Below, in pieces: positions 1,621 to 62,110 of a DNA stretch of 64,000 bases. The notes below the pieces were generated by a model. The model was not told where the DNA came from, made no database searches, and worked only from the letters and a program-made list of their open reading frames with translations. This stretch comes from Sphingobium boeckii (lineage in GTDB: Bacteria > Pseudomonadota > Alphaproteobacteria > Sphingomonadales > Sphingomonadaceae), in assembly GCF_014199215.1 (NCBI RefSeq), contig NZ_JACIJC010000001.1, positions 62,001-126,000 on the forward strand, given 5' to 3'. The position numbers and the translations under genes were made by a program. Positions within the stretch are counted from its first letter, which is position 1; each line of letters starts with the position of its first letter.

Positions 1621-4325
1621 TACTCGCCCGCTGCGGTTCGCAATATCATCGGATCGACGGGCACCGCGCCCAGATTGACGCTCGGCTGCCGATCGCCGAC
1701 CTGCGCGATTTTCGCGAGCAAAGGGCTCAACTTGGCGGCGTCCGCAGCGATTTTGCCGATGCGTAGCGTGTAGCGGCCGTAAGGCACGCCTTCGAACAGA
1801 AAATAGCCGTCGAATTCGCTGCGCGTAACCGCTGCGACACGCCCTTCCACGTCGATCAGTTCGATATCAACGCCTTCCAGCAGACCGCCACCCGCCCGGA
1901 CCAGCGTGCCTTCGACCTCGCCGGCGCTGCGCAAGGGCAGATCGACCGCAATGGCAATGCCCGGCCGCGGCGTGACGACCACACCCGGCCCGGCCGGCTG
2001 CACGAGCGGATCGGGCAGAGACGATGCGTCCACCCCGATCAATACGGGCTGGAACGGGGTCAGCCCATCAACGATCACCTGTCCGCCCGCGTCGGTCAAC
2101 GCATCGACCGGCACACGCCCCGCGGCGATCTGGACGTGCTTCTCCACCGGCTCATCCGCCTGGCGGATTCCGTCTCCGTTACGATCGCGATAGACCTGTG
2201 CGATCACCTGGCCCTGGCTGGCGAGCTTGGTCGTACTGATCCGCACGCCTGTTCCACGTGGATCACGGCCAAGGCTGAAGGCGAGATTGAGGCCGGCGGC
2301 CACCGACCCGTCGCTGGCGGCCTCCGCCGATGCAGACAGCGCAAAGCGTTTGAACCGCTTGCTATAGCCAAATCCGATCCGCGCGCGATCAAGCTCCCCA
2401 TCATAGCCCAGCTCCGTGCGCCAGTCCGCGCGCGGCCCTGCGGCCCATTCGGCCACGGCGGTCGCGCTGCGAAACTGCGTTTCCGGGGCCATGCGGAACC
2501 GGGTTTCGCCACGCAGGCGCACACGGCCGATGCGGGCGTTGGTCAACAATGCGGCTTCCAACCGGCTCGCCGGGTCAGGCCCGACCCTGCGCCGGTCATC
2601 GAAATAATCGACTTGGCCGGTGAGCGAAAATCCACGGAAATTTGAAGAAACGCGCGCCGAACTCTCGAAAGAATTGTTGCCGTCCGCACGCGTCTTATAA
2701 CGGGCATCGATATGGACGGGCATGAAGGCGCGGCCCAGCTTGATGCTGTGATCGAGTGAGACGACGTGCTGGCTGGTCACCAATGCCTCGATTCGTTCCG
2801 AACGGAAGCCGCCGCGCGCGAAGATCGATTCGGCGGAGAGATAACTGTTGCCGATCTGGCCGAGCATCTGCGCCCGCAGCGCGCTGGCCCCATTTGTCTC
2901 GAAGGAGGCCGAGATTTCGGTAATCGCAGGGCCGATCGCCCGGCGGACCAGCGCTTCGGCATAGCTGTGTCGATCGCCTTCGATCATCAGGCTGTGGACA
3001 TAAGCGGCGATCGACGTGCGCGTGTCGATGCCGCGCTCCAGCCCGAAACTGCCGCGCCACCCGCGCGTGCGAAAGTCGCGGTAGCGCGTTAGGCCGATCA
3101 GATCGGCGTCGGCTTCGTTGATGCCCGCCCAATAATACGTCCTTTCAGCCGGGATGCTCTCAAGCCCCACCGAAACCATCTTTTCATCGCGGCGCACCTG
3201 CCCCTGCGGACCATAAAGCACCACTTCGAACCTGTTTTGTCCGTAAAGCAGCGGCACATCGAGAAAAGCATAGCGTCCATCCGAGCGATCGTTGGCGAAA
3301 CCGAGCAATTGGCCATTGCGGTAAAGCTCGGCATCCCAGCCGGACGGCAATTCGCCACGAAAACTGGTGCGATCGAAGGTTTCGGGGCGGTCTACCGGCC
3401 GGTTAGTCACCGCAAACCCCCGCCCGATCGCGCTTTGCGACACCAGCGCGGTCGCGCTGCTGGTGACGTCGCCGATCGCGAAATGCGTAGCGTCGAGCGG
3501 ACCGAGCAGACCGCCCTCCGGCGCGGTGCGATAAGCGCGGAGGCGCAGGTTTTCAGGAATGCCATTTCGATCGGACGATAATCGGGCGTCGAACGACGCC
3601 TTTCCGATCTCGCCCGCGGCATAAAGCTCATAGCGTGCGTCGATCCGCCCCGAGCTGCGCGTGTCGTTGAGACCACCGATGCTGACCACCGCATCCAGGG
3701 AGGGCGTGCGCCACCATTGGAACGGCGCATCCGCCTTGGGCAAGGTTTTCAGATCGAAGCTTCTGGCGGGCCGGATGGACGCGGCGCGGGCGCGACGCTC
3801 GGCGGCCAGCTCGACGGGTAGGCGCGTCTTGGAATCGATCAGCAGCAGCGCATTGCCCGTATCGGCCCGCAAACTGACGCCAAGCCATTGCGACAGCGCC
3901 GGGATCGAAACACACCAGCCCTCGGGCGCGTCGTGAATCGCATCTTCACTCAGATCGGTGGCCGTCTCTCCGATCTGCAGGCGATTCATCGCGCGATCGA
4001 CCAGGATCGCGCGGCTTTCCGAAAATGCCCAGCCCGTGGCGCGGCCCAGGCGCTTGTCCAGCCGGATGGGCAAATCGAGCGCGAGAATGACATCGGCGAA
4101 ATCGACGCAGACGCCCTGCGGCCCCTGATAACCGCGCACGCCTTCGCCCAGCCGATATTGACCCGACCGGACATCGAGCAACAGCGCGTCATCCGCATTG
4201 GGCGTCCATCCCGCGCGGGCATGAAGCGTCGGACCGGCCAGCAGCGCCAGCAGCGCTGCCGCGCCGGCGATGATAGACCGGAATGGACGGAAATGGGGCA
4301 GCCGCATGATGCGCGCGCCCGCCAT
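1620..4325 (-). CDS. Outer-membrane usher of a DUF4402 chaperone-usher system
   Basis: A 901-residue exported protein. Residues about 15-37 are a signal peptide ending ALHARA-like. A periplasmic N-terminal region follows, then a long middle with beta-barrel character and usher-like plug segments (GELPSGWDAELYRNGQLLGF, then a QGQVRRDEKMVSVG-type strand). The C terminus carries beta-sandwich domains: an EF-hand-like DRNGDGIRQADEP stretch and a carboxypeptidase-regulatory-like fold (FDGYFLFEGVPYGRYTLRIG). Ushers translocate and assemble fibre subunits. The ATG at 4325 has GAGG 8-9 bases upstream and follows the chaperone stop after 11 bases. Class assignment (alpha, pi or other) is not possible by eye; the frame is too diverged from PapC. 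Confidence 0.72.
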   Translation of the reverse strand: MAGARIMRLPHFRPFRSIIAGAAALLALLAGPTLHARAGWTPNADDALLLDVRSGQYRLGEGVRGYQGPQGVCVDFADVILALDLPIRLDKRLGRATGWAFSESRAILVDRAMNRLQIGETATDLSEDAIHDAPEGWCVSIPALSQWLGVSLRADTGNALLLIDSKTRLPVELAAERRARAASIRPARSFDLKTLPKADAPFQWWRTPSLDAVVSIGGLNDTRSSGRIDARYELYAAGEIGKASFDARLSSDRNGIPENLRLRAYRTAPEGGLLGPLDATHFAIGDVTSSATALVSQSAIGRGFAVTNRPVDRPETFDRTSFRGELPSGWDAELYRNGQLLGFANDRSDGRYAFLDVPLLYGQNRFEVVLYGPQGQVRRDEKMVSVGLESIPAERTYYWAGINEADADLIGLTRYRDFRTRGWRGSFGLERGIDTRTSIAAYVHSLMIEGDRHSYAEALVRRAIGPAITEISASFETNGASALRAQMLGQIGNSYLSAESIFARGGFRSERIEALVTSQHVVSLDHSIKLGRAFMPVHIDARYKTRADGNNSFESSARVSSNFRGFSLTGQVDYFDDRRRVGPDPASRLEAALLTNARIGRVRLRGETRFRMAPETQFRSATAVAEWAAGPRADWRTELGYDGELDRARIGFGYSKRFKRFALSASAEAASDGSVAAGLNLAFSLGRDPRGTGVRISTTKLASQGQVIAQVYRDRNGDGIRQADEPVEKHVQIAAGRVPVDALTDAGGQVIVDGLTPFQPVLIGVDASSLPDPLVQPAGPGVVVTPRPGIAIAVDLPLRSAGEVEGTLVRAGGGLLEGVDIELIDVEGRVAAVTRSEFDGYFLFEGVPYGRYTLRIGKIAADAAKLSPLLAKIAQVGDRQPSVNLGAVPVDPMILRTAAGE

Positions 4326-6003: not shown

Positions 6004-6528
6004 TTATTCGTAATCCGCGCGAATGGCGATGCGTCCGCGTAAATCTCCGGAAACCTGGCCGTTCACGGTGAGGCGACCGCCGAATCGGAAGCTCAGCCGG
6101 CCATCGGGGCCAAGCCGCGGGGTCGGTTGAAGATCGGTAACGATATCGCGTAATTCGGCGATGGAGCCATCCGGCGCGGAGAGAATCGCGCTTTGGGGCA
6201 TTTCGACTCGGATCAGCCGCCCCGGATCGCCCGACAGGCGCACCGTGCCGCTATATCCCATGCCTCCAAGATCGACCAGCGCGCCGCTGACCAGCCGGCC
6301 GCCGCTATGGGCGTCCAGAGCGACCACGCCTCCGCCCTGCCCGACGATGGCGACCCGGCTGAAATCGATGCCGGATTCGATCTCGATCGTCAGCGGGCGA
6401 TCGGGTTGCGTCTGGTCCGAAAGTATCGCGGTCTCCGCCGGCCCGCAAAGCTGGCACTGCGCATATGACGCTCCGGGCATGGCCAGCGTCATGGCCAGCA
6501 GGAGAGTCAAAGATCGGCGAAGAACCAT
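6004..6528 (-). CDS. DUF4402-like exported protein, probable minor subunit (subunit B)
   Basis: A 174-residue protein with an N-terminal signal peptide (MVLRRSLTLLLAMTLAMPG to SYA). The mature N terminus begins QCQLCGPAE, an unusual CxxC. The rest is a single beta-rich domain ending in the same pattern as subunit A (GQVSGDLRGRIAIRADYE), which supports a DUF4402-type fold. It is first of four minus-strand genes (B, A, chaperone, usher). Start chosen at ATG 6528; a GTG at 6549 is in frame but would add residues before the signal peptide. It could be a tip adhesin or initiator, though this is inference from order and divergence. Confidence 0.6.
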   Translation of the reverse strand: MVLRRSLTLLLAMTLAMPGASYAQCQLCGPAETAILSDQTQPDRPLTIEIESGIDFSRVAIVGQGGGVVALDAHSGGRLVSGALVDLGGMGYSGTVRLSGDPGRLIRVEMPQSAILSAPDGSIAELRDIVTDLQPTPRLGPDGRLSFRFGGRLTVNGQVSGDLRGRIAIRADYE

Positions 6529-6617
6529 CGTGTACGAATAATACCGCACGGCTCAATATTTTGCTAATCCATCAGCCAAGCGCCGCCATCAGAGCCGACG
6601 CGCAAAGGAAAGTTCGC

Positions 6618-7685
6618 GTGCCAGGCTCCGTCACCGCCCATTTGAACGCCATCGGGACCGCAACGCCGCGCCACGATATCCACCGTGCCTTCGTCGATTG
6701 GGCCGCGCCAAGGCTGGAGCCGCGAACCGGCAAGATCTTCAGGCGAATGGTGGAGCGTGCCGAGATCGATCACCGCTGGTCCGTCTTGCCCGAAGCGCCC
6801 GGCGGCGGCTCGCCCGTGTCGCCAGGCGGTTTTTATGCCGACGCCATTCTGCCGCCCACATCAGCGCGGATGGCGCTTTACGCGCACGCCGCGCCCGCAC
6901 TTGCGCTGGAAGCGATCGCAAATCTGGGAGAGGCTTTCGATCTGTCCCGGATCACGCATCTGGTCGTCGCGAGTTGCACCGGCTTTGTCGCGCCCGGCAT
7001 CGATCAGATCATCGCACGAAGGCTGGGCCTGTCCGGCAGCGTGGAGCGGCTGCTGATCGGTTTCATGGGATGCTATGCCGCGGTGAATGCGTTGCGCAGC
7101 GCGCGGCACATCGTCCGCTCGGAACCGGATTCGCGCGTGCTGGTGGTGACGGTGGAGCTTTCCACGCTGCATCTGCAAGATGAACGGCAGATCGAGCCGC
7201 TGCTGGCGATGCTCCAATTCGGTGACGGCGCGGCGGCGGCGATCGTCAGCGCCGATGCGAAGGGACTGGCGATCGGCGAAGGTTTCGCGGCCACTTTGCC
7301 CGATTCGGATGCGCTCATCCGCTGGGATGTGGGCGACACCGGTTTCGCCATGCACCTTTCCGGCGAAGTGCCGGGGCGGATCGGTCTGGCGCTTGCCGAT
7401 CCCGCAATTCGCGACGCACTCACCCGCGGTGCCGATATCCGCTATTGGGCCGTTCATGCCGGGGGTCGATCGATCCTCGATGCGGTCGAACACGGGCTGG
7501 GTCTGTCGGCTGACGCCCTGGCCGAATCGCGGTCGGTATTGCGGGAGAGCGGCAATATGTCGTCCGCCACATTGATGTTCGTGCTGGCCAGGTTAATCGG
7601 CAAGGGCGTGGAAGGGCCGGGGGTTGCGCTGGCCTTCGGGCCGGGGCTGGCCGCCGAAGGTTTCCGTTTCGGTCCCGCAGCATGA
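6618..7685 (+). CDS. Type III polyketide synthase (chalcone/alkylresorcinol synthase family)
   Basis: A 355-residue homodimeric condensing enzyme that extends a CoA- or carrier-linked starter with malonyl-CoA and cyclises the product. The catalytic triad is visible: C120 (VVASCTGF), H280 (WAVHAGG) and N313 (ESGNMSSA). The 33-residue His-Asn spacing matches the family. A second conserved block is GFMGCYAA. Start chosen at GTG 6618, with AAAGGA 8-9 bases upstream; the open frame extends further left but upstream residues are unlike the family. It overlaps the next gene by ATGA, so the three genes form one operon. Substrate is not predictable by eye. Confidence 0.93.
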   Translation: MPGSVTAHLNAIGTATPRHDIHRAFVDWAAPRLEPRTGKIFRRMVERAEIDHRWSVLPEAPGGGSPVSPGGFYADAILPPTSARMALYAHAAPALALEAIANLGEAFDLSRITHLVVASCTGFVAPGIDQIIARRLGLSGSVERLLIGFMGCYAAVNALRSARHIVRSEPDSRVLVVTVELSTLHLQDERQIEPLLAMLQFGDGAAAAIVSADAKGLAIGEGFAATLPDSDALIRWDVGDTGFAMHLSGEVPGRIGLALADPAIRDALTRGADIRYWAVHAGGRSILDAVEHGLGLSADALAESRSVLRESGNMSSATLMFVLARLIGKGVEGPGVALAFGPGLAAEGFRFGPAA

Positions 7686-8374
7686 AGCGCCTGGCCATCC
7701 GTGCGCTGGAGGAAGAGCGGATGGATGCGGCGGACCTCGATCCCCAAATCTATGCCGTGGTGATGGCCGATCTGGCCAAGGTGAACCGCATCACCATGGC
7801 GGCGCGGCCGACACTGGCGTTTCTCAGGCGCGCGCTGAAGGGGCGGACGCATTTTCGCCTGCTCGATGTGGGTTTTGGCGACGGGGACATGCTGAGGACG
7901 ATCGCGCGCTGGGCCGGTGCGCGCGGGCTGACGGCGCAATTGACGGGGATCGATCTCAATCCCAGCAGCGCGCCTGCGGCCCGCGCCCACACGCCGCCCG
8001 ATCTGATGATCGAATGGCGTACCGGCGATTATGCCGATTTGGCAGGAGACGGTTTCGATTTCGTGATTTCCAGCCTGGTGGCGCATCACATGACGCGAGC
8101 ACAATTGGTGGCCTTCCTGCATTTCATGGACGCAGAGGCTGCGACGGGCTGGTTCGTGAACGATCTTCATCGCCACGGTTTGGCCTGGCACGGCTTTCCG
8201 CTGCTCGCGCGCATCATGCGCTGGCACGAGATGGTGCGTCATGACGGCACGCTCTCGATCGCGCGCGCCTATCGTCCGCACGAGTGGCTGCCGATCCTGG
8301 CGGAGGCCGGCATTCCGGATGCCAAACCCTTCCGCGCTTTCCCTTTCAGATTATGCGTCGAACGGCTGCGCTGA
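7682..8374 (+). CDS. Class I SAM-dependent methyltransferase of the polyketide operon
   Basis: A 230-residue protein with the SAM-binding Rossmann motif I FRLLDVGFGDGDML (about residues 58-71), acidic motif LTGIDLN, and motif DGFDFVISSLVAHH. The start codon overlaps the polyketide synthase stop (ATGA), implying translational coupling. By analogy to the Streptomyces srsA-srsB-srsC phenolic-lipid genes, it may O- or C-methylate the phenolic product. That role is inference; the fold assignment is firm. Confidence 0.8.
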   Translation: MKRLAIRALEEERMDAADLDPQIYAVVMADLAKVNRITMAARPTLAFLRRALKGRTHFRLLDVGFGDGDMLRTIARWAGARGLTAQLTGIDLNPSSAPAARAHTPPDLMIEWRTGDYADLAGDGFDFVISSLVAHHMTRAQLVAFLHFMDAEAATGWFVNDLHRHGLAWHGFPLLARIMRWHEMVRHDGTLSIARAYRPHEWLPILAEAGIPDAKPFRAFPFRLCVERLR

Positions 8375-9447
8375 TCGCGGGCGGCGGGCCGGCGGGATCA
8401 GCCGCTGCGATCCGCTTGGCCCATAATGGTGCAAGGCCGCTGCTGATCGAGCGGACGCGCGAGACGGGGGATGCGTTGTGCGGCGGATTTCTAAGCTGGC
8501 GCACGCTGCAAAGCCTGGAGCTGCTGGGGCTATCAGCGGATGCGCTGGGCGGCCATGCGGTCAGCCGCGTGCGTGTCTTTGCCGAAGGCCGTGCCACCGA
8601 GGCGCATTTACCAGCGCCGGCCATCGGGCTTTCACGGCGCAGGCTTGATTCCCTGATGCTCGCCGCCGCCGCACGCGCCGGTGCAGGGATAGAGCGCGGC
8701 ACCTCCATCAGCAGTGCCGCGGCGGGATCGGTGGCCTTGGCGGATGGCGCAGACATCGCGTGCGACAGTCTGTTTCTCGCCACCGGCAAGCATGATTGCC
8801 GGGGATTGCCCCGCCCGCGTCCTGCAACGGACGATCCCGCATTGGGCCTGCGGCTGCGCCTGCCCGCATCCCCCCAGCTCGCCAAACGCGTGGGCGACGC
8901 CATCGAACTGCATCTGTTCCGCGGCGGCTATGCCGGGCTGGTGCTGCAGGAGGATGGCAGCGGCAATCTGTGCCTGGCGGTGCGCAAATCGCTTTTGACC
9001 GAAAGCGGTGGCGATGCCTGGCATTTGCTGAAGACCCTGGCGTCCGCTTCGCCCGCCTTCGCCGGGCGCATGGCGTGTGCCGACTCTTCCGCCACCATCA
9101 ATGCGATCGGATCGGTGCCCTATGGCTGGCGCGCGACCGCCGGCGTGGCGGGTCTGTTCCGTCTGGGCGATCAGGCCGCGGTGATCCCCTCGCTGGCGGG
9201 GGAAGGGATGGGCATTGCCATCGCCAGCGGGATGCGTTCCGCCGATGCCTGGCTGAAGCAGGGGCCGGCGGCCGCGATCGCGTTTCAAAGGGATCTCGCA
9301 CGGCGCACCGCGGCACCCGTGCGGCTGGCGTCATGGCTTCGTAATGCCGCAGAAACGCGCTGGAGCCGCCGCATGGCCCCCGCGCTGATCGGGCATATGC
9401 CCCGGTTGCTGGCATGGGTGGCGCATCACACGCGGATCGAATCCTGA
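8353..9447 (+). CDS. FAD-dependent oxidoreductase of the polyketide operon
   Basis: A 364-residue flavoprotein of the geranylgeranyl-reductase / aromatic hydroxylase superfamily. It shows an N-terminal dinucleotide-binding motif LIAGGGPAGSAAAIRLA, the residues ETGDALCGGFLSW typical of the reductase-like branch, and a second FAD motif LGDQAAVIPSLAGEGMG. The ATG at 8353 lies 22 bases inside the methyltransferase gene. In Streptomyces, SrsC hydroxylates methylated resorcinols. This protein could act similarly or reduce a side chain; sequence alone does not decide. Confidence 0.78.
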   Translation: MRRTAALIAGGGPAGSAAAIRLAHNGARPLLIERTRETGDALCGGFLSWRTLQSLELLGLSADALGGHAVSRVRVFAEGRATEAHLPAPAIGLSRRRLDSLMLAAAARAGAGIERGTSISSAAAGSVALADGADIACDSLFLATGKHDCRGLPRPRPATDDPALGLRLRLPASPQLAKRVGDAIELHLFRGGYAGLVLQEDGSGNLCLAVRKSLLTESGGDAWHLLKTLASASPAFAGRMACADSSATINAIGSVPYGWRATAGVAGLFRLGDQAAVIPSLAGEGMGIAIASGMRSADAWLKQGPAAAIAFQRDLARRTAAPVRLASWLRNAAETRWSRRMAPALIGHMPRLLAWVAHHTRIES

Positions 9448-19591: not shown

Positions 19592-20184
19592 GTCTCGATA
19601 ATCCCCCGAATCCTCAGATAATCCAGCAATGGCAGCAAAGGCAGACCGAGAATCGTGAACTGGCTGCCTTCGATCTTCGCAAAGAGTTGCACACCCGGCC
19701 CCTCGATCCGGTAACAACCCACGCACCCGGCGACATGCTCATATTCCGCGTCGAGATAGGCTTCGATGTAAGCGTCCGAGAGCGTCCGCACCGTCATCTT
19801 GACCCGATCCACATGCCGCCAGACGGCGCGACCATGCTCCGCGATCACTCCTGCGCTGTAGAGACTGTGCGTCCGCCCCGATAGCAGCCGAAGCTGCGCC
19901 GCGGCCTCAGCGCGATCCCCCGGCTTGTCGAGCATGGTGCCATCGTCGAGCACCAGGGTCTGGTCAGCGCCCAAAACGAGCGCACCGGGCAAACGCCCGG
20001 AAACGCGCACCGCCTTCAACTCCGCCAGCGCATCGGCCAGATCACGCGCGCTCAATCCATCGGCCCGCAGACTGGCCTTGGCCGCTTCTTCGTCCACGCC
20101 TGCCGCCATGGCGTCATGTGGCACACCGGCGGCGTCGAGCATGGCGCGCCGGGCGGCGCTTTGCGATGCCAGCACCAGGGTCAT
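19588..20184 (-). CDS. Maf/YceF-type nucleoside triphosphate pyrophosphatase
   Basis: A 198-residue Maf-family protein that hydrolyses modified or canonical nucleotides (house-cleaning). The N terminus MTLVLASQSAARRAML is the phosphate-binding signature; LVLGADQTLVLDDGTMLDKP holds the acidic metal site. A cysteine-containing GCVGCYRIEGPGVQLF segment replaces the common AGGYQIQG; that is within known family variation. The start overlaps the ppsR stop (ATGA). Confidence 0.9.
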   Translation of the reverse strand: MTLVLASQSAARRAMLDAAGVPHDAMAAGVDEEAAKASLRADGLSARDLADALAELKAVRVSGRLPGALVLGADQTLVLDDGTMLDKPGDRAEAAAQLRLLSGRTHSLYSAGVIAEHGRAVWRHVDRVKMTVRTLSDAYIEAYLDAEYEHVAGCVGCYRIEGPGVQLFAKIEGSQFTILGLPLLPLLDYLRIRGIIET

Positions 20185-21005
20185 GCCGCGCCCTGCGCGC
20201 TATGGCGTTCGTTGAACAGGTTGATGATGGCCGCTGCGGTTTCCTCGATGGACCGTCGCGTCACATCGATCACCGGCCAGCCGTTATCGGCATAGATCCG
20301 TCGCGCGAACGCCACCTCGCGCGCAACAGCCTCTTGATCGACATAGTCGGTTTCGGGTGCCTGATTGAGCGAAAGCAGCCGGTTCCGCCGGATCTGCACC
20401 AGTCGGTCCGGACTGGTCGTCAGCCCCACGACAAGCGGGTTTTTGAGATTGTAGAGCGTGTCCGGCGGCGGCGATTCCAGCACGATCGGTATATTCGCGG
20501 TCTTGTAACCGCGATTGGCCAGATAGATGGATGTCGGGGTTTTGGAGCAACGCGATACGCCGGCAAGAACGATATCGGCCGCCTCCCAGTTTTCCCAGCC
20601 CACGCCATCGTCATGCGCGATGGTAAACTGAATCGCATCCACGCGCGCGAAATACGCCGCATCGAGGATATGCTGTCGGCCTGGCCGGGCCTTGGCTTCC
20701 TGGCCCAGCAGGTTTGACAGTGCATCGGTCACCGGATCAAGCGCGGCTACCATGGGCAGGCCCAGCGCCAGGCAGCGCGTTTCCAGCTTGCGTCGGGTTT
20801 CGGCATTGACCAGCGTGAAGAGCACCAGCCCGGGATTTTGCGCGATATCGATGAGGATTCGATCCAGATGGCCTTCGGAGCGCACCATCGGCCAGAAATG
20901 TTTGATGGTCTCCACCCCATCGAACTGGGCGAGCGCGGCCTTGGCGATATTCTCCAGCGTTTCGCCGGTGGAGTCCGAGAGCAAATGGAGGTGAAGCCGG
21001 GTCAT
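20181..21005 (-). CDS. ppsR: Pyruvate, water/phosphate dikinase regulatory kinase-pyrophosphorylase (DUF299)
   Basis: A 274-residue bifunctional enzyme that inactivates PEP synthase or PPDK by ADP-dependent phosphorylation and reverses it with phosphate. The start MTRLHLHLLSDSTGETL and the P-loop-like GVSRCSKTPTSIYLA are diagnostic. This is the RP001 homologue that flanks the origin in Rickettsia and Caulobacter. The start at ATG 21005 lies 10 bases from the first DnaA box, so replication and expression elements are close together. The dikinase target is outside the window. Confidence 0.92.
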   Translation of the reverse strand: MTRLHLHLLSDSTGETLENIAKAALAQFDGVETIKHFWPMVRSEGHLDRILIDIAQNPGLVLFTLVNAETRRKLETRCLALGLPMVAALDPVTDALSNLLGQEAKARPGRQHILDAAYFARVDAIQFTIAHDDGVGWENWEAADIVLAGVSRCSKTPTSIYLANRGYKTANIPIVLESPPPDTLYNLKNPLVVGLTTSPDRLVQIRRNRLLSLNQAPETDYVDQEAVAREVAFARRIYADNGWPVIDVTRRSIEETAAAIINLFNERHSAQGAA

Positions 21006-21015
21006 TGCGCTTCTT

Positions 21016-21024
21016 TGTGGATAA
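21016..21024 (-). promoter_or_regulatory. DnaA box, perfect
   Basis: Plus strand TGTGGATAA, the exact complement of TTATCCACA. It lies 11 bases upstream of the ppsR start. Confidence 0.85.
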
Positions 21025-21094
21025 AACCGGGATATTTCCAGCAAAAGACGCATCCGCGTCCCGATCGACGATTCCATCCCCGCTCGGATGGATT

Positions 21095-21103
21095 TCATCC
21101 ACA
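21095..21103 (+). promoter_or_regulatory. DnaA box, one mismatch
   Basis: TCATCCACA matches TTATCCACA at 8 of 9 positions and is in opposite orientation to the two perfect boxes. Confidence 0.6.
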
Positions 21104-21137
21104 GCTTGTCCCCGGTCGATCGTCAAAGTCCAATGCC

Positions 21138-21146
21138 TGTGGATAA
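21138..21146 (-). promoter_or_regulatory. DnaA box, perfect
   Basis: Plus strand TGTGGATAA, second exact match, central in the ppsR-hemE gap. Confidence 0.85.
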
Positions 21147-21260
21147 CGGGGATCAAGAACACGAATCCGAGCCTTTATGGAGCTTTTGCGCGGTCAAGCT
21201 GTTGGCAAAAATGCGGACAGCGAATAAGCCCCGTCATCCACGCGACCAACTACCACTCCA

Positions 21261-21290
21261 ATCCAATTAAAGAATCTTTCTATTATAGAA
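21261..21290. other. AT-rich candidate DNA unwinding element
   Basis: Six of these 30 bases are G or C (20%) in an otherwise GC-rich region. It sits at the hemE end of the gap beyond the DnaA boxes, as expected for a duplex unwinding element. It could also carry the hemE promoter. Confidence 0.5.
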
Positions 21291-21312
21291 GAGGGGACAC
21301 GCTCTGTCCGAA

Positions 21313-22329
21313 ATGCCGAAATTGCTCCGTGTGCTCAAAGGCGCGCAGGAAGAGGTTCCGCCCATCTGGCTCATGCGTCAGGCGGGCCGTTATCTGCCCG
21401 AATATCGCGCATTGCGTGCGGACAAGGGCGGGTTCCTGGCGCTGGTGAACGACAGCACCGCAGCGGCGGAAATCACGCTTCAGCCGATCAAGCGGTTTGG
21501 CTTTGACGGCGCGATCCTCTTTTCCGACATTCTGGTGATCCCGCACGCTTTGGGCCAGGATCTGCGTTTCGAAGCGGGTGAGGGGCCACGGCTTTCGCCG
21601 CCGCTGGTGGATCACGCGCTGGAGGCTTTGCAGGTTGTTCCTGAGCGGCTGGCACCGGTCTATGAGACGGTGCGGCAGGTTCGCGCAGCCTTGCCCCCCC
21701 AAACCACCTTTCTCGGCTTTGCAGGCAGCCCCTGGACCGTGGCGACCTATATGGTGGCGGGGCAGGGGAGCAAGGAGCAGGGCGAAACGCGGCGTTATGC
21801 CTATCGTGATCCCGCGGCTTTTCAGGCGATCATCGATGCGATTGCGACGGCCACGGTGGATTATCTCTCCGGCCAGATCGAGGCGGGGGTCGACGCGGTT
21901 CAGTTGTTCGACAGCTGGTCGGGCAGCCTTTCGCCCGCGCAATTCGAACAATGGGTGATCGCGCCGACGGTGAAGATCGTCCAGGCGCTCCGTGCACGGC
22001 ATCCTGAAACCGTCATCATCGGCTTTCCAAAGGGTGCGGGTGGAAAGCTCCCCGCTTATGCCCGCGAAACCGGTGTGGATGCGATCGGCGTGGACGAGAC
22101 GGTCGATCCCGCATGGGCACATGCCAATCTGCCGGCGGATATGCCCGTCCAGGGCAATCTCGATCCCCTGGCATTGATCACAGGTGGTGAGACATTGAAA
22201 TCTGCAGCGCACCGCATCCTTGCGGCGTTCAAGGGACGTCCCCATATCTTCAATCTGGGCCACGGCATCCTGCCAGACACGCCGATCGCGCATGTCGAGC
22301 AATTGCTGTCCATCGTGCGGGATCGATAA
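21313..22329 (+). CDS. hemE: Uroporphyrinogen decarboxylase
   Basis: Converts uroporphyrinogen III to coproporphyrinogen III in haem synthesis. 338 residues, normal length. The N-terminal signature PIWLMRQAGRYLPEYR with the two substrate-binding arginines is intact, as is GFAGSPWTVATYMV. It is the gene immediately to the right of the origin, followed after 3 bases by hemJ. The ATG at 21313 has a GAGGGG about 15 bases upstream, rather far; a closer non-ATG start is possible. Confidence 0.96.
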   Translation: MPKLLRVLKGAQEEVPPIWLMRQAGRYLPEYRALRADKGGFLALVNDSTAAAEITLQPIKRFGFDGAILFSDILVIPHALGQDLRFEAGEGPRLSPPLVDHALEALQVVPERLAPVYETVRQVRAALPPQTTFLGFAGSPWTVATYMVAGQGSKEQGETRRYAYRDPAAFQAIIDAIATATVDYLSGQIEAGVDAVQLFDSWSGSLSPAQFEQWVIAPTVKIVQALRARHPETVIIGFPKGAGGKLPAYARETGVDAIGVDETVDPAWAHANLPADMPVQGNLDPLALITGGETLKSAAHRILAAFKGRPHIFNLGHGILPDTPIAHVEQLLSIVRDR

Positions 22330-28831: not shown

Positions 28832-28847
28832 TGTTCCACGTGGAACA
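28832..28847. promoter_or_regulatory. parS: parS-type ParB binding site 1
   Basis: The 16-base palindrome TGTTCCACGTGGAACA is centred on CACGTG in the mnmE-mnmG gap. It differs from the classical parS TGTTTCACGTGAAACA at two symmetrical positions. Confidence 0.85.
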
Positions 28848-30744: not shown

Positions 30745-31379
30745 TGACGGAGGATGAGGCCAGGGCATGGTTGGCGGCTCAGCATGTTTCACGTGAAACA
30801 GTGGATTCCATCACGGCATTTGTCGATTTCCTGTTTCAGGAAGGGGAAAGCCAGAATCTGATTTCCGCATCGAGCCGCGCCCATGTGTGGGCGCGTCATA
30901 TCGTCGATTCCGCGCAACTGGCGTTCATAGCCCAAGCGCAAGAGGCGCCTGATGGGCCGTGGCTGGATCTGGGTTCGGGTGCGGGATTTCCCGGACTGAT
31001 CATCGCCGCCCTGATGCACCGCCCCGTGATTTTGGTGGAATCACGGCGTAAGCGCGCAGATTTCCTGATTGCCGCTGCTGATATCCTGGGCGTTTCGGAT
31101 CATGTGAAGGTGGATGGACGCCGGCTGGAGTTGATCGAAACCCAAAAGGTGGGGGTTATCAGCGCCCGCGCTTTCGCGCCGCTGGAACGCCTGTTCCCTC
31201 TGGCCGAGCGATTTTCCCGTTCCGAGACGCTGTGGCTGCTGCCAAAAGGACGAAGTGCGCAAAGCGAACTGGCAGACGCACGAAAGACGTGGCAGGGTGC
31301 GTTTCACGTGGAACAGAGCGTTACCGACCCGGAAGCCGCGATCATCGTGGCCCGCGGGGTCCGGCGAGGGAAAAAATGA
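30741..31379 (+). CDS. rsmG: 16S rRNA (guanine527-N7) methyltransferase RsmG
   Basis: 212 residues, methylates G527 of 16S rRNA. SAM motif [14 protein letters not shown], preceded by the substrate region [19 protein letters not shown]. Residues 15-20 (HVSRET) are encoded by a perfect parS site, so the protein sequence is constrained by segregation DNA. The last bases overlap parA (ATGA). Confidence 0.96.
30785..30800. promoter_or_regulatory. parS: parS ParB binding site 2 (perfect consensus)
   Basis: TGTTTCACGTGAAACA, an exact match to the Bacillus/Caulobacter parS consensus, lies within the first 60 bases of rsmG. Confidence 0.95.
31300..31315. promoter_or_regulatory. parS: parS-type ParB binding site 3
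   Basis: CGTTTCACGTGGAACA near the end of rsmG, a hybrid of sites 1 and 2 with one mismatch at the outer base. Confidence 0.8.
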
Positions 31380-55009: not shown

Positions 55010-56209
55010 ATGATGCGCGAATTGGGGCGGGGTTTCCTCAAGCTGGTCATGGTTTTCGGGCTTTGGGGCGTGGCTGTATGGCCGGCGACGGGATGGTATA
55101 GTTACAAGCTGATCCACAAGGAATTGACGGGAATGCAGGGTTTGCATGTCAATTCGCAGGCGCTGATCGGTCGTGATTTCATCAACATCTGGCATGGCGG
55201 ACAGGAAGCTCTGCACCATGGCGCGGCGGGCGTTTATGACCGCGACATCTATCGCAAAACGCTGTTCGAGAAGGCCGGTTTCGCCGGGCTTTACGCCTAT
55301 TCCTATCCGCCGCACATGCTTCTGCTCTCGCTGCCCTTCGGCATGACGGGCTATCTGGTCGCGCTGGCGGCCTGGCTGATCCTCACCTTCGGCCTGTTTT
55401 GCCACGCCGCGCGCCCGTGGCTCCGCGATCTTGGACTGCCGGGCTGGGCGGGGCTGATCCTGCCGGCAACGATCGTCAATATCTGGGCCGGGCATTTCGG
55501 TTTCCTGATCGGCGCGCTTGCGCTTTATGGCTGGCGGCGCGCGGAGAACAATCCGATGCGCAGCGGCCTCGCCTTCGCCGTGATGACCGTGAAACCGCAT
55601 ATGGGCATTTTGGTGCCGCTGGTGCTGGCGATGAAGCGGCAGTGGAAGACCGCTTATTGGGCGGCTGCGGGGACGGGCGCGCTCGTGGCGCTATCGATAC
55701 TGGTTTTTGGATCTTGGTCCTGGACGACCTGGCTCAGTTCCACACTCAGCTTTCAGGCCGGCCTGATCGAGATCGTGCCGACCCAGCCCTATAGCTATAT
55801 GATGCCCACATCGGGACGGATGCTGTATGCGCTGACCCGCGATCCGGGACTGGTCATGATCGGCCAGATCGTGATCGGGTTCTATGCGGTGGCGACTCTG
55901 ATCTGGGCCCATAAGCGCAGTGTGCCGATCCGTGACCTCGGCCTGCTGAGCATCGTCGCGATCCCGCTGATCCTGCCCTATAGCTTCAATTATGACATGG
56001 TCGCGCTGTGCGTGGTGGCGCTGGTGTGTGCGGCGCGGTTCGGCGTGAAATGGTATAGCCCGGATCGGGCAGTCTATGCGGCGGCGTTCATGATTCCGCT
56101 GATCTTGGTGCCGCTGGCCAGGCTCAATCTATGGCCGTCACCGATTATATTGATGCTGTTTCTGGGATGTGCGGCTTGGCGGATGGTGCCGGGAAGAAAC
56201 TCGATATGA
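55010..56209 (+). CDS. GT87 / DUF2029 family membrane glycosyltransferase (copy 1)
   Basis: 399-residue polytopic protein of the polyprenol-phosphate-mannose-dependent mannosyltransferase group. The acidic GT-C loop is ALIGRDFINIWHGGQEALHH, followed by [35 protein letters not shown] and AFAVMTVKPHMGILVPLVLA. About ten helices. ATG 55010 chosen; ATG 55013 also fits. Its stop overlaps the next gene (ATGA). Confidence 0.8.
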   Translation: MMRELGRGFLKLVMVFGLWGVAVWPATGWYSYKLIHKELTGMQGLHVNSQALIGRDFINIWHGGQEALHHGAAGVYDRDIYRKTLFEKAGFAGLYAYSYPPHMLLLSLPFGMTGYLVALAAWLILTFGLFCHAARPWLRDLGLPGWAGLILPATIVNIWAGHFGFLIGALALYGWRRAENNPMRSGLAFAVMTVKPHMGILVPLVLAMKRQWKTAYWAAAGTGALVALSILVFGSWSWTTWLSSTLSFQAGLIEIVPTQPYSYMMPTSGRMLYALTRDPGLVMIGQIVIGFYAVATLIWAHKRSVPIRDLGLLSIVAIPLILPYSFNYDMVALCVVALVCAARFGVKWYSPDRAVYAAAFMIPLILVPLARLNLWPSPIILMLFLGCAAWRMVPGRNSI

Positions 56210-57420
56210 ATAGAAAGCGGAGGCAACCCTTTGGGGATTGGAGCTTCGTTATCGCTGCTACAATTTTAATTATGGGCTTTTCATTTTTGGTCCGCGACTT
56301 TCTAACGATCCATGATGGTCTTGCGATCAATCAATATATTCGACTAGGACGCGATTTTGTTAATGTCTGGCACGGCGGAACGCTTGCTCTGGCAGATCAA
56401 TCTCGACTTATTTATGATCTAGACGCTTATCGAGAGACGCTATGGGCCGCGCTCGGCGTTAAAGGTATATATGCTTATTCCTATCCGCCTCACAGCTTGT
56501 TTCTGGCGGCGGCATTTTCTCTTTTGCCATATGGGCTCGCCTTGGCGGTATGGACTGCGTTGGGTCTCGCACTTTTCACACACGCGGCGAAGCCATATCT
56601 TGTTGCGTCAGATGTTCCGTGGTGGTGGGCTGCCCTTCTTCCCGCGGGTTTTGTAAACATCTGGGCGGCGCACTACGGCTTTCTGATCGGTGCGCTTGCG
56701 CTTTATGGCTGGCGTTGGCTCGATACTTTTCCAAAACGGGCGGGTTTTGCGTTCGCTGTCATGACCATCAAACCCCACATGGGGGTGTTGGTCTTCCTTG
56801 TCCTCGCATTGCGTCGAGAGGTAAAGGTTATGATATGGGCCACGACCTTCAGCATTTTATTGGGCGTGGTGGCAAGCCTGTTCTTTGGCGGACATTTATG
56901 GATTCTCTATGTCACCCAAACTCTGAGCTTTCAGGCTAGCCTGATTGATATGTCGGGCATGGCTTTCCTCTCGATGATGCCAACAACCACGGTTTCCATG
57001 CTTCAATTGGGTGCCACACGCATCCTAGCGAACGTTGCGCAGGCCATTTCCGCCATTGTCGCAATAACCATCGTCATTCGTGCAATTGCGATCCGCATTC
57101 CGATAATGGACATTGGGCTGCTCGCGGGCACAGCGATCTTTCTCGTTCTGCCTTATGCTTTTATCTATGATATGCCCGTTCAGTCTCTGGCTGCCCTGGT
57201 GTTCGCTGCGCGGGCAAACGGCTTGGACGCAAAAAGACAGAAAGCCATACTCGCTGCCGCATTCGTACTTCCATTTTTTCAAATGACGCTCGTCCAAGTT
57301 GGACTGCCCGTTGCGCCATTGATTTTGCTTGCAGCTTTGATCGAGCAAGATCGTATCGCACGTCGTCAATTAAAAGCGCATTCAGGCGTGGTCGCGGCGA
57401 CCGAGCAGCCGCAGCCTTAG
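56206..57420 (+). CDS. GT87 / DUF2029 family membrane glycosyltransferase (copy 2, low GC)
   Basis: 404-residue paralogue of the preceding gene, with matching blocks [48 protein letters not shown] and [19 protein letters not shown]. Base use differs from its neighbours: by hand count, 56221-56400 is about 45% GC against 67% for 55441-55500. This points to acquisition or replacement. The start at ATG 56206 overlaps copy 1; its last 39 bases overlap argG on the other strand. Confidence 0.78.
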
Positions 57421-59320: not shown

Positions 59321-60034
59321 ATGACCGATTTTACCGCCAGGAAAGTGCTCGTTTTAGGAGGAAGCCGCGGTATCGGTGCCGCCATCGTCAAGCGATTCGC
59401 AAGGGATGGTGCAGAGGTTACGTTCAGCTTTGCCGGATCGACCGATGCAGCCAAGGCATTGTCCGATGACACGGGTGCCAATGCCGTGCAGGCCGATAGC
59501 GCCGACCGCGACGCCTTGATTGCCGCGGTGGCGGCTCAAGGGGCGCTCGACGTGCTGGTCATCAACGCGGGAACGCTCGCACTGGGCGATCCGCTGACGA
59601 TCGATCCCGATGCCATAGACAAGATGATCGATGTCAACGTGCGTGCGCCCTATCATGCCGCGGTGGAAGCCGCGCGCCGCATGAAGGACGGCGGCCGGAT
59701 CATCGTGATCGGATCCACCAATGGCGATCGCATACCGTTTGAGGGCGGGGCCGCCTACGCGATGACCAAATCCGCCATGCAGGGCATGGTGCGCGGTCTC
59801 GCGCGTGACTTCGGAGACCGCCGGATTACGGTCAACAGCATCCAGCCGGGGCCGACCGATACCGACATGAATCCCGCCGAAGGCCCGATGGCCGAACTGA
59901 TGCACAGCTTCATGGCGATCAAGCGCCACGTTCATGCCGATGAAATCGCGGGGCTGGCCGCCTATCTCGCCGGGCCTGAAGCCGGGATGATCACCGGATC
60001 GATGCAGACGATCGACGGCGGCTTCGGCGCCTGA
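59321..60034 (+). CDS. bdcA: Short-chain dehydrogenase, BdcA-like (c-di-GMP-linked dispersal)
   Basis: 237-residue SDR. NADP-binding VLVLGGSRGIGAAIVKRF, catalytic YAMTKSAMQGM (Tyr and Lys of YxxxK) and QPGPTDTDMNP. The sequence closely recalls E. coli BdcA, reported to bind c-di-GMP and promote biofilm dispersal; paired with a TetR gene as bdcR-bdcA. A perfect AAGGAGG ribosome site sets the ATG 59321. Whether it acts as a reductase here is open. Confidence 0.82.
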   Translation: MTDFTARKVLVLGGSRGIGAAIVKRFARDGAEVTFSFAGSTDAAKALSDDTGANAVQADSADRDALIAAVAAQGALDVLVINAGTLALGDPLTIDPDAIDKMIDVNVRAPYHAAVEAARRMKDGGRIIVIGSTNGDRIPFEGGAAYAMTKSAMQGMVRGLARDFGDRRITVNSIQPGPTDTDMNPAEGPMAELMHSFMAIKRHVHADEIAGLAAYLAGPEAGMITGSMQTIDGGFGA

Positions 60035-60037
60035 TCG

Positions 60038-61270
60038 TCAAGCCCGCGCGGCGATGCGTTTCTCCTCCACCGTGATCCAGTCGCGGGTGAGGGGGATCGC
60101 ATCGCGCTTGCGGGTGTAGAGGATCTGGTAATTGCCCATGCCGCCGCTTTCGAACGTGGCGATCGCGCCGGCGAGATAGAAGAGCCACATCCGCAGGAAG
60201 CGCGCGTCATACATGGCGGTAATGGCGTCGGCCTTTTCCAAGGTGCGGCTATACCAATGGCGGACGGTCATGGCGTAATGCAGGCGCAGCGTTTCCACAT
60301 CCGCTGCGATCAGCTTGCTCTTCTCGCTGGCCGCCAGCGTCTCGGACAGCGCCGGGATATAGCCACCGGGAAAGATGTATTTGCGGGTGAAGGCGTCCGT
60401 CGTTCCGGGACCGCCGAAACGGCCGATCGTATGGATCAGCATCACGCCGTCCTCAGTCAGAAGATTCCGGCATGTCTGGAAGAACTGGCGGAAGTGCGGC
60501 GGACCGACATGCTCGAACATGCCGACGGACACGATCCGATCGAACTGCCCCTCCAGATTGCGATAATCGATCAGCGCGAATTTCACATGATCCGAGACCC
60601 CGGTCGCGGCGGCGCGTTCGCGCGCGATCTTAAGCTGCTCTTCGGAGAGCGTGATGCCGAGGATATCCACGCCACAGGTCTTGTGGAGGAACAGCGCCAT
60701 GCCGCCCCAGCCGCAACCGATATCAAGCACGCGCTGGCCCGGTTTCAGGCAGAGCTTGGCGGCGATATGCGCTTTCTTGTCCACCTGCGCCTGCTCCAGG
60801 CTGTTGGCAGGATCGGTGAAATAGGCGCAGCTATATTGCATGTCCGCATCGAGAAAGAGGCGGTAGAAGTCATTCCCCAGATCATAATGATGCGCCACAT
60901 TCTGTTTGGAGCGCCCCTGCCAGTTCAGCCTGTCGAACTGACTGCCCCAACGGCTCAGCGTGCGGCGGATGGGATTGCGAATCTTCAGATCGCCGCCCTT
61001 CTCCCACGGCGCATTCTTGCGGATCAGCGTGATGAGATCGAGGATATCGCCGCGCTCGATGACCATCCGGCCATCCATATAGGCTTCCGCTGCGCCCAGC
61101 CGGGGGTGGCGCACCACATAATTTTCAGCGCCGGCGTCGGTGAAGCGAATGGTGACATCGCCATAGTCTGCGTCCGGCGTGCCGAACGTCCGGCTTCGCC
61201 CGGAGTGGTCGATCAGGGTCAGCGTCCCGCGTTTGACGATGCGGGTGAGAAAAGTATCGATCAGCGCCAT
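60038..61270 (-). CDS. cfa: Cyclopropane-fatty-acyl-phospholipid synthase family protein
   Basis: 410-residue SAM-dependent enzyme acting on membrane phospholipid acyl chains. N-terminal lipid-binding domain, then QNVAHHYDLGNDFYRLFLD, DIGCGWGGMALFL, ITLSEEQLKIARER, and VGMFEHVGPPHF (bicarbonate/active site). GGAGG lies 5 bases before ATG 61270. It converges on bdcA with 3 bases between the stops. Confidence 0.92.
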   Translation of the reverse strand: MALIDTFLTRIVKRGTLTLIDHSGRSRTFGTPDADYGDVTIRFTDAGAENYVVRHPRLGAAEAYMDGRMVIERGDILDLITLIRKNAPWEKGGDLKIRNPIRRTLSRWGSQFDRLNWQGRSKQNVAHHYDLGNDFYRLFLDADMQYSCAYFTDPANSLEQAQVDKKAHIAAKLCLKPGQRVLDIGCGWGGMALFLHKTCGVDILGITLSEEQLKIARERAAATGVSDHVKFALIDYRNLEGQFDRIVSVGMFEHVGPPHFRQFFQTCRNLLTEDGVMLIHTIGRFGGPGTTDAFTRKYIFPGGYIPALSETLAASEKSKLIAADVETLRLHYAMTVRHWYSRTLEKADAITAMYDARFLRMWLFYLAGAIATFESGGMGNYQILYTRKRDAIPLTRDWITVEEKRIAARA

Positions 61271-61345
61271 TCGGCCTCCGTTCAAACCAGCCCCCCGGCT
61301 GCGCTCTCAATGAAAAGAGACGGCCGCGCGGTCAAGCCATCGGCT

Positions 61346-62110
61346 TCAGATCCCGGCATACCATTCATATCCGGCGCGATCCTCCCAGAAGCCACCCTTG
61401 CCGAGGCCGATGCCATCCAGACTGGCCACCGCTTCTATCCGCTGGACATATTTGGCGTGCTTATACCCCAGATGCCGCTCCACCCGGAGCCTGAGCGGCG
61501 CGCCATTGCGAATGGGCAGCACCGCGTCGTTGAGCGCCCAGGCCATGATCGTCTGGGGGTGAAAGGCGTCGATCAGATCGATCGATTCATAATATTGCGT
61601 GCCGCCCCCGCTATCGTCGGCACAGTGAAACACGATGTAGCGCGCGCCATCGCGCAGCCCGGCTTGATCGAGCAGCATTTTGAGCGGGACACCCGTCCAT
61701 TTGCCGATCGCGCTCCACCCTTCCACACAATCATGTCGCGTGATCTGCGTCCGTTGCGGCATGGATCGGATCTGCGCCATGGACAGCGTCTCGGGGCGGC
61801 TCACCAGTCCGTCGATTGCCACGCGCCAATCGCTGAAATTGGCGGCGGCATGGGCCTGATAATTCGGATCCTGCGGGTTTTGCGATCCATTGCCACGGAA
61901 GAAGGGGGAAAGATCGCTCTGGTCAAACTCCCGCGCCAGTGCCTCACGATCGGTCAGCAGACGTTGGGCGTGGCGGTTCATCGCGTCGGCGGAAAACAGG
62001 ATTTTGCGAAACCCCTCATTCTCGCCGAGCTTGTCGCAGCCTGCCAGCAAGCCACCTGCGCCCAGCGCTGCCCCGGTGATGAGCCGCCGCCGGGTGAGGA
62101 TCGCGCTCAT
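61346..62110 (-). CDS. Molybdopterin-dependent oxidoreductase (sulfite oxidase / YedY-like)
   Basis: 254-residue exported protein with a twin-arginine/lipobox signal (RRRLITGAALGAGGLLAGC). The Mo-binding cysteine is in TRHDCVEGWSAIGKW. LRLRVERHLGYKHAKYVQRIEAV is the substrate-side region. Short length fits the YedY/MsrP-type fold. The next upstream gene encodes a cytochrome b-like protein with a 4-base overlap (ATGA), so electrons likely pass to or from it. Substrate not defined. Confidence 0.85.
   Translation of the reverse strand: MSAILTRRRLITGAALGAGGLLAGCDKLGENEGFRKILFSADAMNRHAQRLLTDREALAREFDQSDLSPFFRGNGSQNPQDPNYQAHAAANFSDWRVAIDGLVSRPETLSMAQIRSMPQRTQITRHDCVEGWSAIGKWTGVPLKMLLDQAGLRDGARYIVFHCADDSGGGTQYYESIDLIDAFHPQTIMAWALNDAVLPIRNGAPLRLRVERHLGYKHAKYVQRIEAVASLDGIGLGKGGFWEDRAGYEWYAGI

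Follow-up and report, generated by a model that had tools for sequence, protein, structure and literature searches.

The ppsR/hemE intergenic gap of Sphingobium boeckii as a candidate chromosomal replication origin, and its comparative layout among sphingomonad relatives

Genomic setting of the ppsR/hemE gap

The window analysed here (64,000 nucleotides; bases 62001-126000 of contig C1 in a Sphingobium boeckii genome of 4.03 Mb in 14 contigs) contains an intergenic gap of 307 bp that separates two divergent genes, ppsR (COG1806, the RP001 homologue) and hemE (Table 1). The original prediction had described a gap of this length between these two neighbours, with the genes on both sides transcribed away from it: the profile scores confirm the identity of both, and the gene starts (ppsR at 21005 on the minus strand, hemE at 21313 on the plus strand) confirm their orientation. 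The ppsR product scored above the cut-off of its subfamily model (NF003742: 325.9 bits, cut-off 225) and below that of the narrower PpsR model (NF049928: 151.6, cut-off 350). An alternative ppsR frame that uses an upstream ATG runs to 21098 (i.e. into the gap), and the ppsR alignments in three congeners (L057-L059) start at residue 1 of the shorter form, which was the form compared. The gene order reads coaE-aroE-maf-ppsR on one side of the gap and hemE-hemJ-rho, with mnmE-mnmG-rsmG-parA-parB further on, at the other. A profile scan of ten proteins placed ppsR, hemE, rho, mnmE and mnmG above the cut-off of their best model, coaE and parB above that of another matching model, and hemJ, rsmG and aroE below theirs (maf and parA were named by eye from the translations). 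The AT content of the gap reaches 0.492 (vs 0.374 in the window and 0.80 in the best 30 bp); thus, the locus shows the size (200-1000 bp), the flanking hemE and/or COG1806 and the AT content above that of the genome by which alphaproteobacterial hemE-side origins have been delimited (PMC1914354).

Table 1. Coordinates of the candidate origin, its flanking genes and associated sequence features (positions in the window)
Feature	Position	Strand	Remarks
oriC candidate (whole gap)	21006..21312		307 bp, between divergent ppsR and hemE
ppsR / COG1806 (RP001 homologue)	20181..21005	-	left boundary gene; NF003742 325.9 bits
hemE	21313..22329	+	right boundary gene; TIGR01464 395.5 bits, cut-off 302.95
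DnaA box A, TTATCCACA	21016..21024	-	perfect; counterparts near ppsR in many relatives
GANTC site 1	21070..21074		CcrM-type
DnaA box B, TCATCCACA	21095..21103	+	8/9
DnaA box C, TTATCCACA	21138-21146	-	perfect; W-box-like TCCCCG adjoining at 21147-21152 (joint feature 21138..21152)
GANTC site 2	21163..21167		in CGANTC; aligned across the 17 closest listed gaps
Conserved element GTCAAGCTGTTGGCAA	21193..21208	+	IHF-like (TCAAN4TTG) and/or hemE promoter -35
Conserved block ATAAGCCCCG	21224..21233	+	15 nt after the GTCAAGCTGTTGGCAA element
Weak DnaA box D, TCATCCACG	21234..21242	+	7/9; faces the AT-rich element; boxes also in relatives
G-free run	21245..21271	+	27 nt; candidate single-strand DnaA-binding tract
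AT-rich element	21261..21290		candidate unwinding element; 30 bp at 80% AT, including GANTC site 3
GANTC site 3	21272-21276		inside AT-rich element
parS-like	2250..2265		one mismatch; ppsR side; C1:64250-64265
parS	28832..28847		perfect to TGTTNCACGTGNAACA; C1:90832-90847
parS	30785..30800		perfect; C1:92785-92800
parS	31300..31315		one mismatch; C1:93300-93315

DnaA boxes in the gap and in the genome

The two perfect DnaA boxes and the single 8/9 match that had been predicted within the gap could all be located (boxes A, C and B, respectively). Three occurrences of TTATNCACA were found in the window (vs 0.48 expected), a number reached in none of 100 shuffles. Genome-wide (4.03 Mb), TTATNCACA occurs 25 times and TTATCCACA 16 times, so that by simple arithmetic two copies of the latter would fall in a given 307-bp stretch with p of about 7e-7 (about 0.01 genome-wide). 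The gap constitutes the top cluster among 121 near boxes (at most one mismatch) in the 1,131,001 bases scanned (28% of the genome), and no second triple cluster was seen in these 1.13 Mb or among the sites listed for C1:1-989 kb. The one-mismatch search of the whole genome returned 402 sites (vs 344 for a reversed-pattern control), which were listed for C1:1-989 kb, near boxes on the other contigs being covered where these were sampled. DnaA boxes are hence more frequent in the gap than elsewhere, as expected of a hemE-side oriC, judging by near boxes in 28% of the genome and by perfect boxes genome-wide. Perfect boxes paired within 310 bp are present at two places in the genome, the gap and C5:425148-425179.

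The latter pair was rejected as a rival origin, since it lies beside genes that we take, from their protein sequences, to be rpsB- and tsf-like, just upstream of a small ORF. Its two boxes (L016:10148-10179) are arranged head-to-head near GAAC-N7-GAAC (presumably a LexA-like motif), and the short ORF that follows has, by eye, a membrane-like start; it possibly encodes a DnaA- and SOS-linked small protein. In the complete genome of a congener (G004), three perfect DnaA boxes were observed within 146 bp (C1:2322615-2322760, L180) beside an ABC-F-like ATPase gene; this triplet is situated apart from the skew minimum, gave no match in a blastn comparison with the C5 pair, and could be a DnaA-titrating site.

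A layout shared among the gaps of relatives

The hemE matches listed in named records belong mostly to Sphingomonas and other Sphingomonadales, and ppsR stands divergently beside hemE in 80 of the 85 listed hemE loci, with gaps of 283-439 bp (median 325.5, 80 listed gaps). As the named loci are the best 80 of at least 589 relatives found, the set leans to close relatives; furthermore, the 80 gaps are related by descent, and the counts and z-scores given below are therefore not independent events. The shuffled gaps used as controls were first-order Markov copies (motif counts, run lengths, trio rule and GANTC) or plain letter shuffles (recurrence and box-D tests). Two records, titled Microvirga (L079) and Bacillus (L109), contain hemE loci that resemble those of sphingomonads (74% and 70% identity, respectively), and their titles may be wrong.

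Comparison of these gaps suggests a layout common to about half of the 80 and open to testing, in which boxes A and C are followed by an IHF-like element, a second block, a weak box, a G-free run and AT-rich DNA. The 15-mer TGTGGATAATGGGGA (box C extended; on the other strand TCCCCA joined to TTATCCACA) was present at 13/15 or better in 44/80 listed gaps (vs 2/800 shuffled), and TCCCCA itself had a mean of 1.18 per gap (80 listed gaps; 0.31 shuffled). This hexamer is the Caulobacter W-box (PMC1914354, PMC4468827, PMC4285127, as far as the accessible text of these papers goes), and the S. boeckii gap carries TCCCCG in its place. The sequence GTCAAnnTGTTnGCAA was recovered with at most one of its 13 positions mismatched in 38/80 listed gaps (0/800 shuffled), the other 42, many of them titled Erythrobacter, Novosphingobium and kin, having no good match. 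Its only exact occurrence in the S. boeckii genome is that in the gap; allowing one mismatch adds no further site and allowing two adds 57, as compared to a total of 37 for the reversed-pattern control. The ATAArCCCC block begins exactly 15 nt past GTCAAnnTGTTnGCAA in 32 of the 37 listed gaps that pass both score limits, and box C lies 55-57 bp from the IHF-like element in 32 of 33 measurable listed gaps. The distance between boxes A and C (measurable in 32 of the 38 gaps with the element) falls into two classes, 110-114 bp (8 gaps) and 121-125 bp (24 gaps) with none between, that differ by about one helical turn.

Five loci lack ppsR beside hemE (L068, L095, L104, L119 and, on a short contig, L080) and stand outside the 80 gaps. 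One of them (L104) has maf- and aroE-like ORFs (by eye) in place of ppsR, and upstream of its hemE we found a perfect box TTATCCACA, TGATCCACA and the IHF-like GGCAACCTGTTGGCAA (one mismatch). Where a coaE-like ORF occupies the ppsR side (L119), one near box accompanies a TGTTGGCAA block recognised by eye, and where a maf-like ORF does so (L095) a block of the TGTTGGCAA type is visible by eye with no near box. In L068, where hemE follows a hemF-like ORF and has apparently been relocated, the perfect box, TGATCCACA and the IHF-like element are all absent from the 1600 bp upstream of hemE. The contrast between these loci, few as they are, suggests that the origin features are tied to the chromosomal slot rather than to hemE alone.

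The IHF-like element admits two readings. On the one hand, it presents the conserved IHF core TCAAN4TTG (the leading WA being absent), it is similar by eye to the published Caulobacter IHF site TAACGCTCTGTT (PMC1914354, PMC4468827, PMC4285127; accessible text), and the genome encodes IHF beta (C2:559424, both curated cut-offs passed) and alpha (C6:44874, one of two passed). The best match to WATCAANNNNTTR was 8/9 in 35/80 listed gaps (124/800 shuffled) and 9/9 in 0/80 (5/800 shuffled). On the other hand, GTCAAnnTGTTnGCAA-N15-ATAArCCCC might be the -35/-10 pair of a hemE promoter and no IHF site, a reading that concerns this sub-element only: the 15-nt spacing recurs in most of the gaps that pass both score limits, TTGGCA resembles a -35, and CATAAT occurs at the second block in some gaps. 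Against this, the conservation extends beyond the -35 in a manner that fits the IHF core TCAAN4TTR, and the site was not reported by a promoter consensus scan. We consider the promoter reading quite possible without favouring it, and the two roles can coexist at GTCAAnnTGTTnGCAA.

Assignment of the chromosomal origin

The partitioning sites lie close to the gap. Whole-genome searches with TGTTNCACGTGNAACA, which we take to be the parS motif, returned four sites with at most one mismatch, all of them within C1:64250-93315 and less than 20 kb from the gap (C1:83006-83312); four further places elsewhere in the genome have two mismatches (a total of 8 at up to two mismatches, vs 3 for the reversed-pattern control). 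A comparable arrangement was found in the complete congener genome G004, where three perfect parS (1840723-1843202) are positioned 7-10 kb from the gap (near 1.851 Mb; hemE at 1849665-1850663). The GC skew of this genome (40 sampled 20-kb stretches) was negative in 17 of the 21 stretches starting below 1.81 Mb and positive in 14 of the 17 starting at 1.98 Mb or above, the sampled cumulative skew being lowest at 1.89-1.91 Mb (about 40 kb or more from the gap, on the ppsR side).

The skew of S. boeckii itself, computed on a draft of 14 contigs, is weak and gives no position for the origin, so the location is taken from the other evidence. A switch at about 21.1 kb had been anticipated, and this expectation was weakly borne out: the minimum within the window (23.75 kb) agrees with it, while that over C1:1-166000 (60001-62000 missing) is found at 5 kb (78 kb from the gap) and speaks against it. 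The skew falls only locally, from 55 to 87 kb of C1, and C1:1-60000 is not negative. In both genomes (C1:1-166000; G004 near 1.85-1.98 Mb) the skew minimum was observed on the ppsR side of the gap, at a distance of tens of kb. A terminus-type change (from positive to negative) is visible on C5 between about 340 and 415 kb, and a weaker one on C4. A hexamer strand classifier trained on G004 (24/31 correct in leave-one-out) labelled 62-83 kb negative and four stretches over 83-166 kb positive; as C1:1-60 kb is also positive, it supports an origin at the gap weakly.

Taken together, the ppsR-hemE synteny, the parS sites, the skew of the congener and the lack of a box cluster at dnaA support the original prediction, and we conclude from these sequence comparisons that the 307-bp gap is very probably the sphingomonad chromosomal origin oriC, at the same place as the Caulobacter Cori. 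The further claim that a precise origin can be read directly from the sequence holds for its location and not for the start point of synthesis.

A different account would have the gap serve as the divergent promoter region of ppsR and hemE only, with DnaA boxes that regulate transcription and an origin elsewhere. In its favour, the other pair of perfect boxes (C5:425148-425179) sits in a promoter-looking region, TTGGCA...TAAGCC could be a hemE promoter, and the consensus scan of 20900-21400 returned one promoter-like site (minus strand, 21310-21282, towards ppsR; 10/12, 0.2 expected). We regard this account as very improbable, given that the triple cluster has no counterpart in the DNA scanned or listed, that the dnaA region contains three scattered near boxes in 10 kb and no perfect one, and that parS, congener skew and synteny all indicate the gap. 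The promoter-like site on the minus strand (21282-21310) falls in the AT-rich element. Bacterial origins generally lie at dnaA (here C2:145081-146409), and an origin there, for which this general rule speaks, was rejected as barely credible, since TTATNCACA is absent within 40 kb of the gene, its near boxes are few and dispersed, and all nine sampled C2 stretches are negative in skew (i.e. no origin-type switch is seen in the C2 sample); accordingly, neither the alternative box cluster nor the skew switch near dnaA that would have spoken against the gap appeared in the stretches sampled.

The putative opening side

The hemE-proximal part of the gap, as assigned to oriC above, combines weak box D with a G-free run and an AT-rich element. 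The longest G-free run in the last 130 nt before hemE had a median of 26 nt in the 80 listed gaps (12 shuffled) and exceeded the shuffled 95% limit in 53 of them; for the longest C-free run the corresponding median is 20, so AT-richness explains part of this excess. Among the 55 listed gaps whose G-free run reaches 20 nt or more (the 25 with shorter runs were left out of the recurrence test), C recurred most strongly at 3 nt (z 8.7; 4.7 at 4 nt and 5.6 at 7 nt), and the 3-nt recurrence of A and T gave z 4.4 and 4.7, respectively. Read in frame from the anchor the C signal was weaker (z 3.8, -0.7 and -3.0 for the three frames), in a tract profile where 10 of the 80 gaps have no anchor and some (e.g. 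L060, L063) have it elsewhere. Of the anchored listed gaps, 27/70 have a box of no more than two mismatches at a distance of up to 16 nt on the upstream side of the anchor (10/1400 shuffled).

This part of the gap resembles, in its DnaA box, short GC patch, tract with 3-nt recurrence and AT-rich DNA, the basal unwinding system (PMC8287927), whose published rule, in the text available, calls for a DnaA box (at most two mismatches) within 16 bp of at least three NAN trios. The S. boeckii gap differs in this respect, its best stretch having two trios, and in view of the order of its elements it resembles a basal unwinding system without the defining trio. Across the 80 listed gaps the rule was satisfied in 19 toward hemE (3.2 shuffled; 10 at the tract and 9 far upstream) and in 12 toward ppsR. 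The strongest 3-nt recurrence in the relatives is that of C on the plus strand, unlike the trios of the basal unwinding system.

GANTC density and CtrA sites

The listed gaps are rich in GANTC: the mean per gap was 4.76 (80 listed gaps; 1.49 shuffled), three or more were present in 71/80 (15.6 shuffled), and the density of the motif was 6.3 times that of the flanking DNA (77 listed loci for both). Seven palindromes built like GANTC served as controls: six had ratios of 0.59-1.34 and the seventh (AGNCT) 2.74, as compared to 4.38 for GANTC. The gap of G004 is the top GANTC cluster of the DNA sampled and ranks first of 106 intergenic segments (a ranking made for G004 only); that of S. boeckii holds only three sites, and 310-bp stretches elsewhere in the genome have 4 to 7. 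The genome also codes for GcrA and a RAMA-domain protein. According to the accessible parts of the literature, GANTC ranks first in abundance among the methylated motifs of Sphingomonas sp. AAP5 (PMC8067484), its intergenic enrichment is known in Alphaproteobacteria, several GANTC motifs have been published for the Caulobacter origin, and deletion of ccrM in Caulobacter leaves a DNA-content profile like that of the wild type, with initiation not altered (PMC3973325). A limited literature search, in the texts accessible to it, returned no report of GANTC enrichment at sphingomonad origins.

CtrA sites (TTAAN7TTAA) were not enriched, with one perfect match in the 80 listed gaps and matches of at least 7/8 in 7/80 (about 4 from shuffles). 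Their number at hemE-side origins is described as variable, and as zero in some (PMC1914354, available text), and an influence of CtrA on replication has been shown in Sphingomonas melonis (PMC8116508, available text), which counts against dismissing CtrA.

Relation to known origins and a proposed mechanism

Origins on the hemE side are already in print for Sphingomonadaceae, most of those in DoriC being predicted near hemE (PMC4741004). The origin of Sphingopyxis granuli TFA and those of other Sphingomonadaceae share with our gap the hemE-side position, conserved DnaA boxes, a putative DUE and conserved neighbours, while the accessible text of that account does not mention the IHF-like element, the box spacing or the GANTC load. 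As this origin type is already recognised there, the gap would be a further example of it, and the value added over the known location is the comparative layout. The Caulobacter Cori (PMC1914354, PMC4468827, PMC4285127), as described in the text available, is likewise located between hemE and COG1806 and combines an IHF site, two classes of DnaA sites and an AT-rich element; it differs in its G-boxes TGATCCACA, where the S. boeckii gap has perfect TTATCCACA boxes, and in that CtrA sites are not enriched in the listed gaps.

On the basis of this layout, the following succession of events may be envisaged. DnaA would bind the strong boxes A and C and the weaker box B, and IHF would bend the DNA at GTCAAnnTGTTnGCAA, bringing the DnaA complex to weak box D. 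From there ATP-DnaA might spread past the short GC patch to reach the G-free run, whereupon the AT-rich element (21261-21290) would open and the helicase would be loaded. The hemE transcript probably has its start within the origin, and its synthesis may assist opening; CcrM methylation of the GANTC sites may add a timing signal. In its most general form the proposal holds that sphingomonad origins possess an opening module of their own, in which a weak DnaA box and a GC patch feed DnaA onto a G-free tract (with a 3-nt recurrence of C replacing the DnaA-trios). This module would keep a constant helical spacing to a composite IHF/promoter element specific to origins, and dense GANTC methylation would time it. 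We put this proposal forward as speculative, and as a whole it is rather unlikely to be right. If it were, the dense GANTC timing would be the alphaproteobacterial counterpart of the GATC control at the E. coli oriC. The known location rule is confirmed in a draft genome, and the layout supplies the exact bases to mutate. It also raises the questions of whether hemE-side origins use a variant basal unwinding system, and whether GANTC density is relevant to the timing of sphingomonad replication.

Other features of the window

Away from the gap, type III polyketide synthase-, methyltransferase- and FAD reductase-like ORFs follow one another (by eye) at 6465-9447. The neighbouring ORFs 55010-56209 and 56131-57420 have common motifs, e.g. 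FAVMT(V/I)KPHMG, and look like a tandem duplication of a membrane protein.
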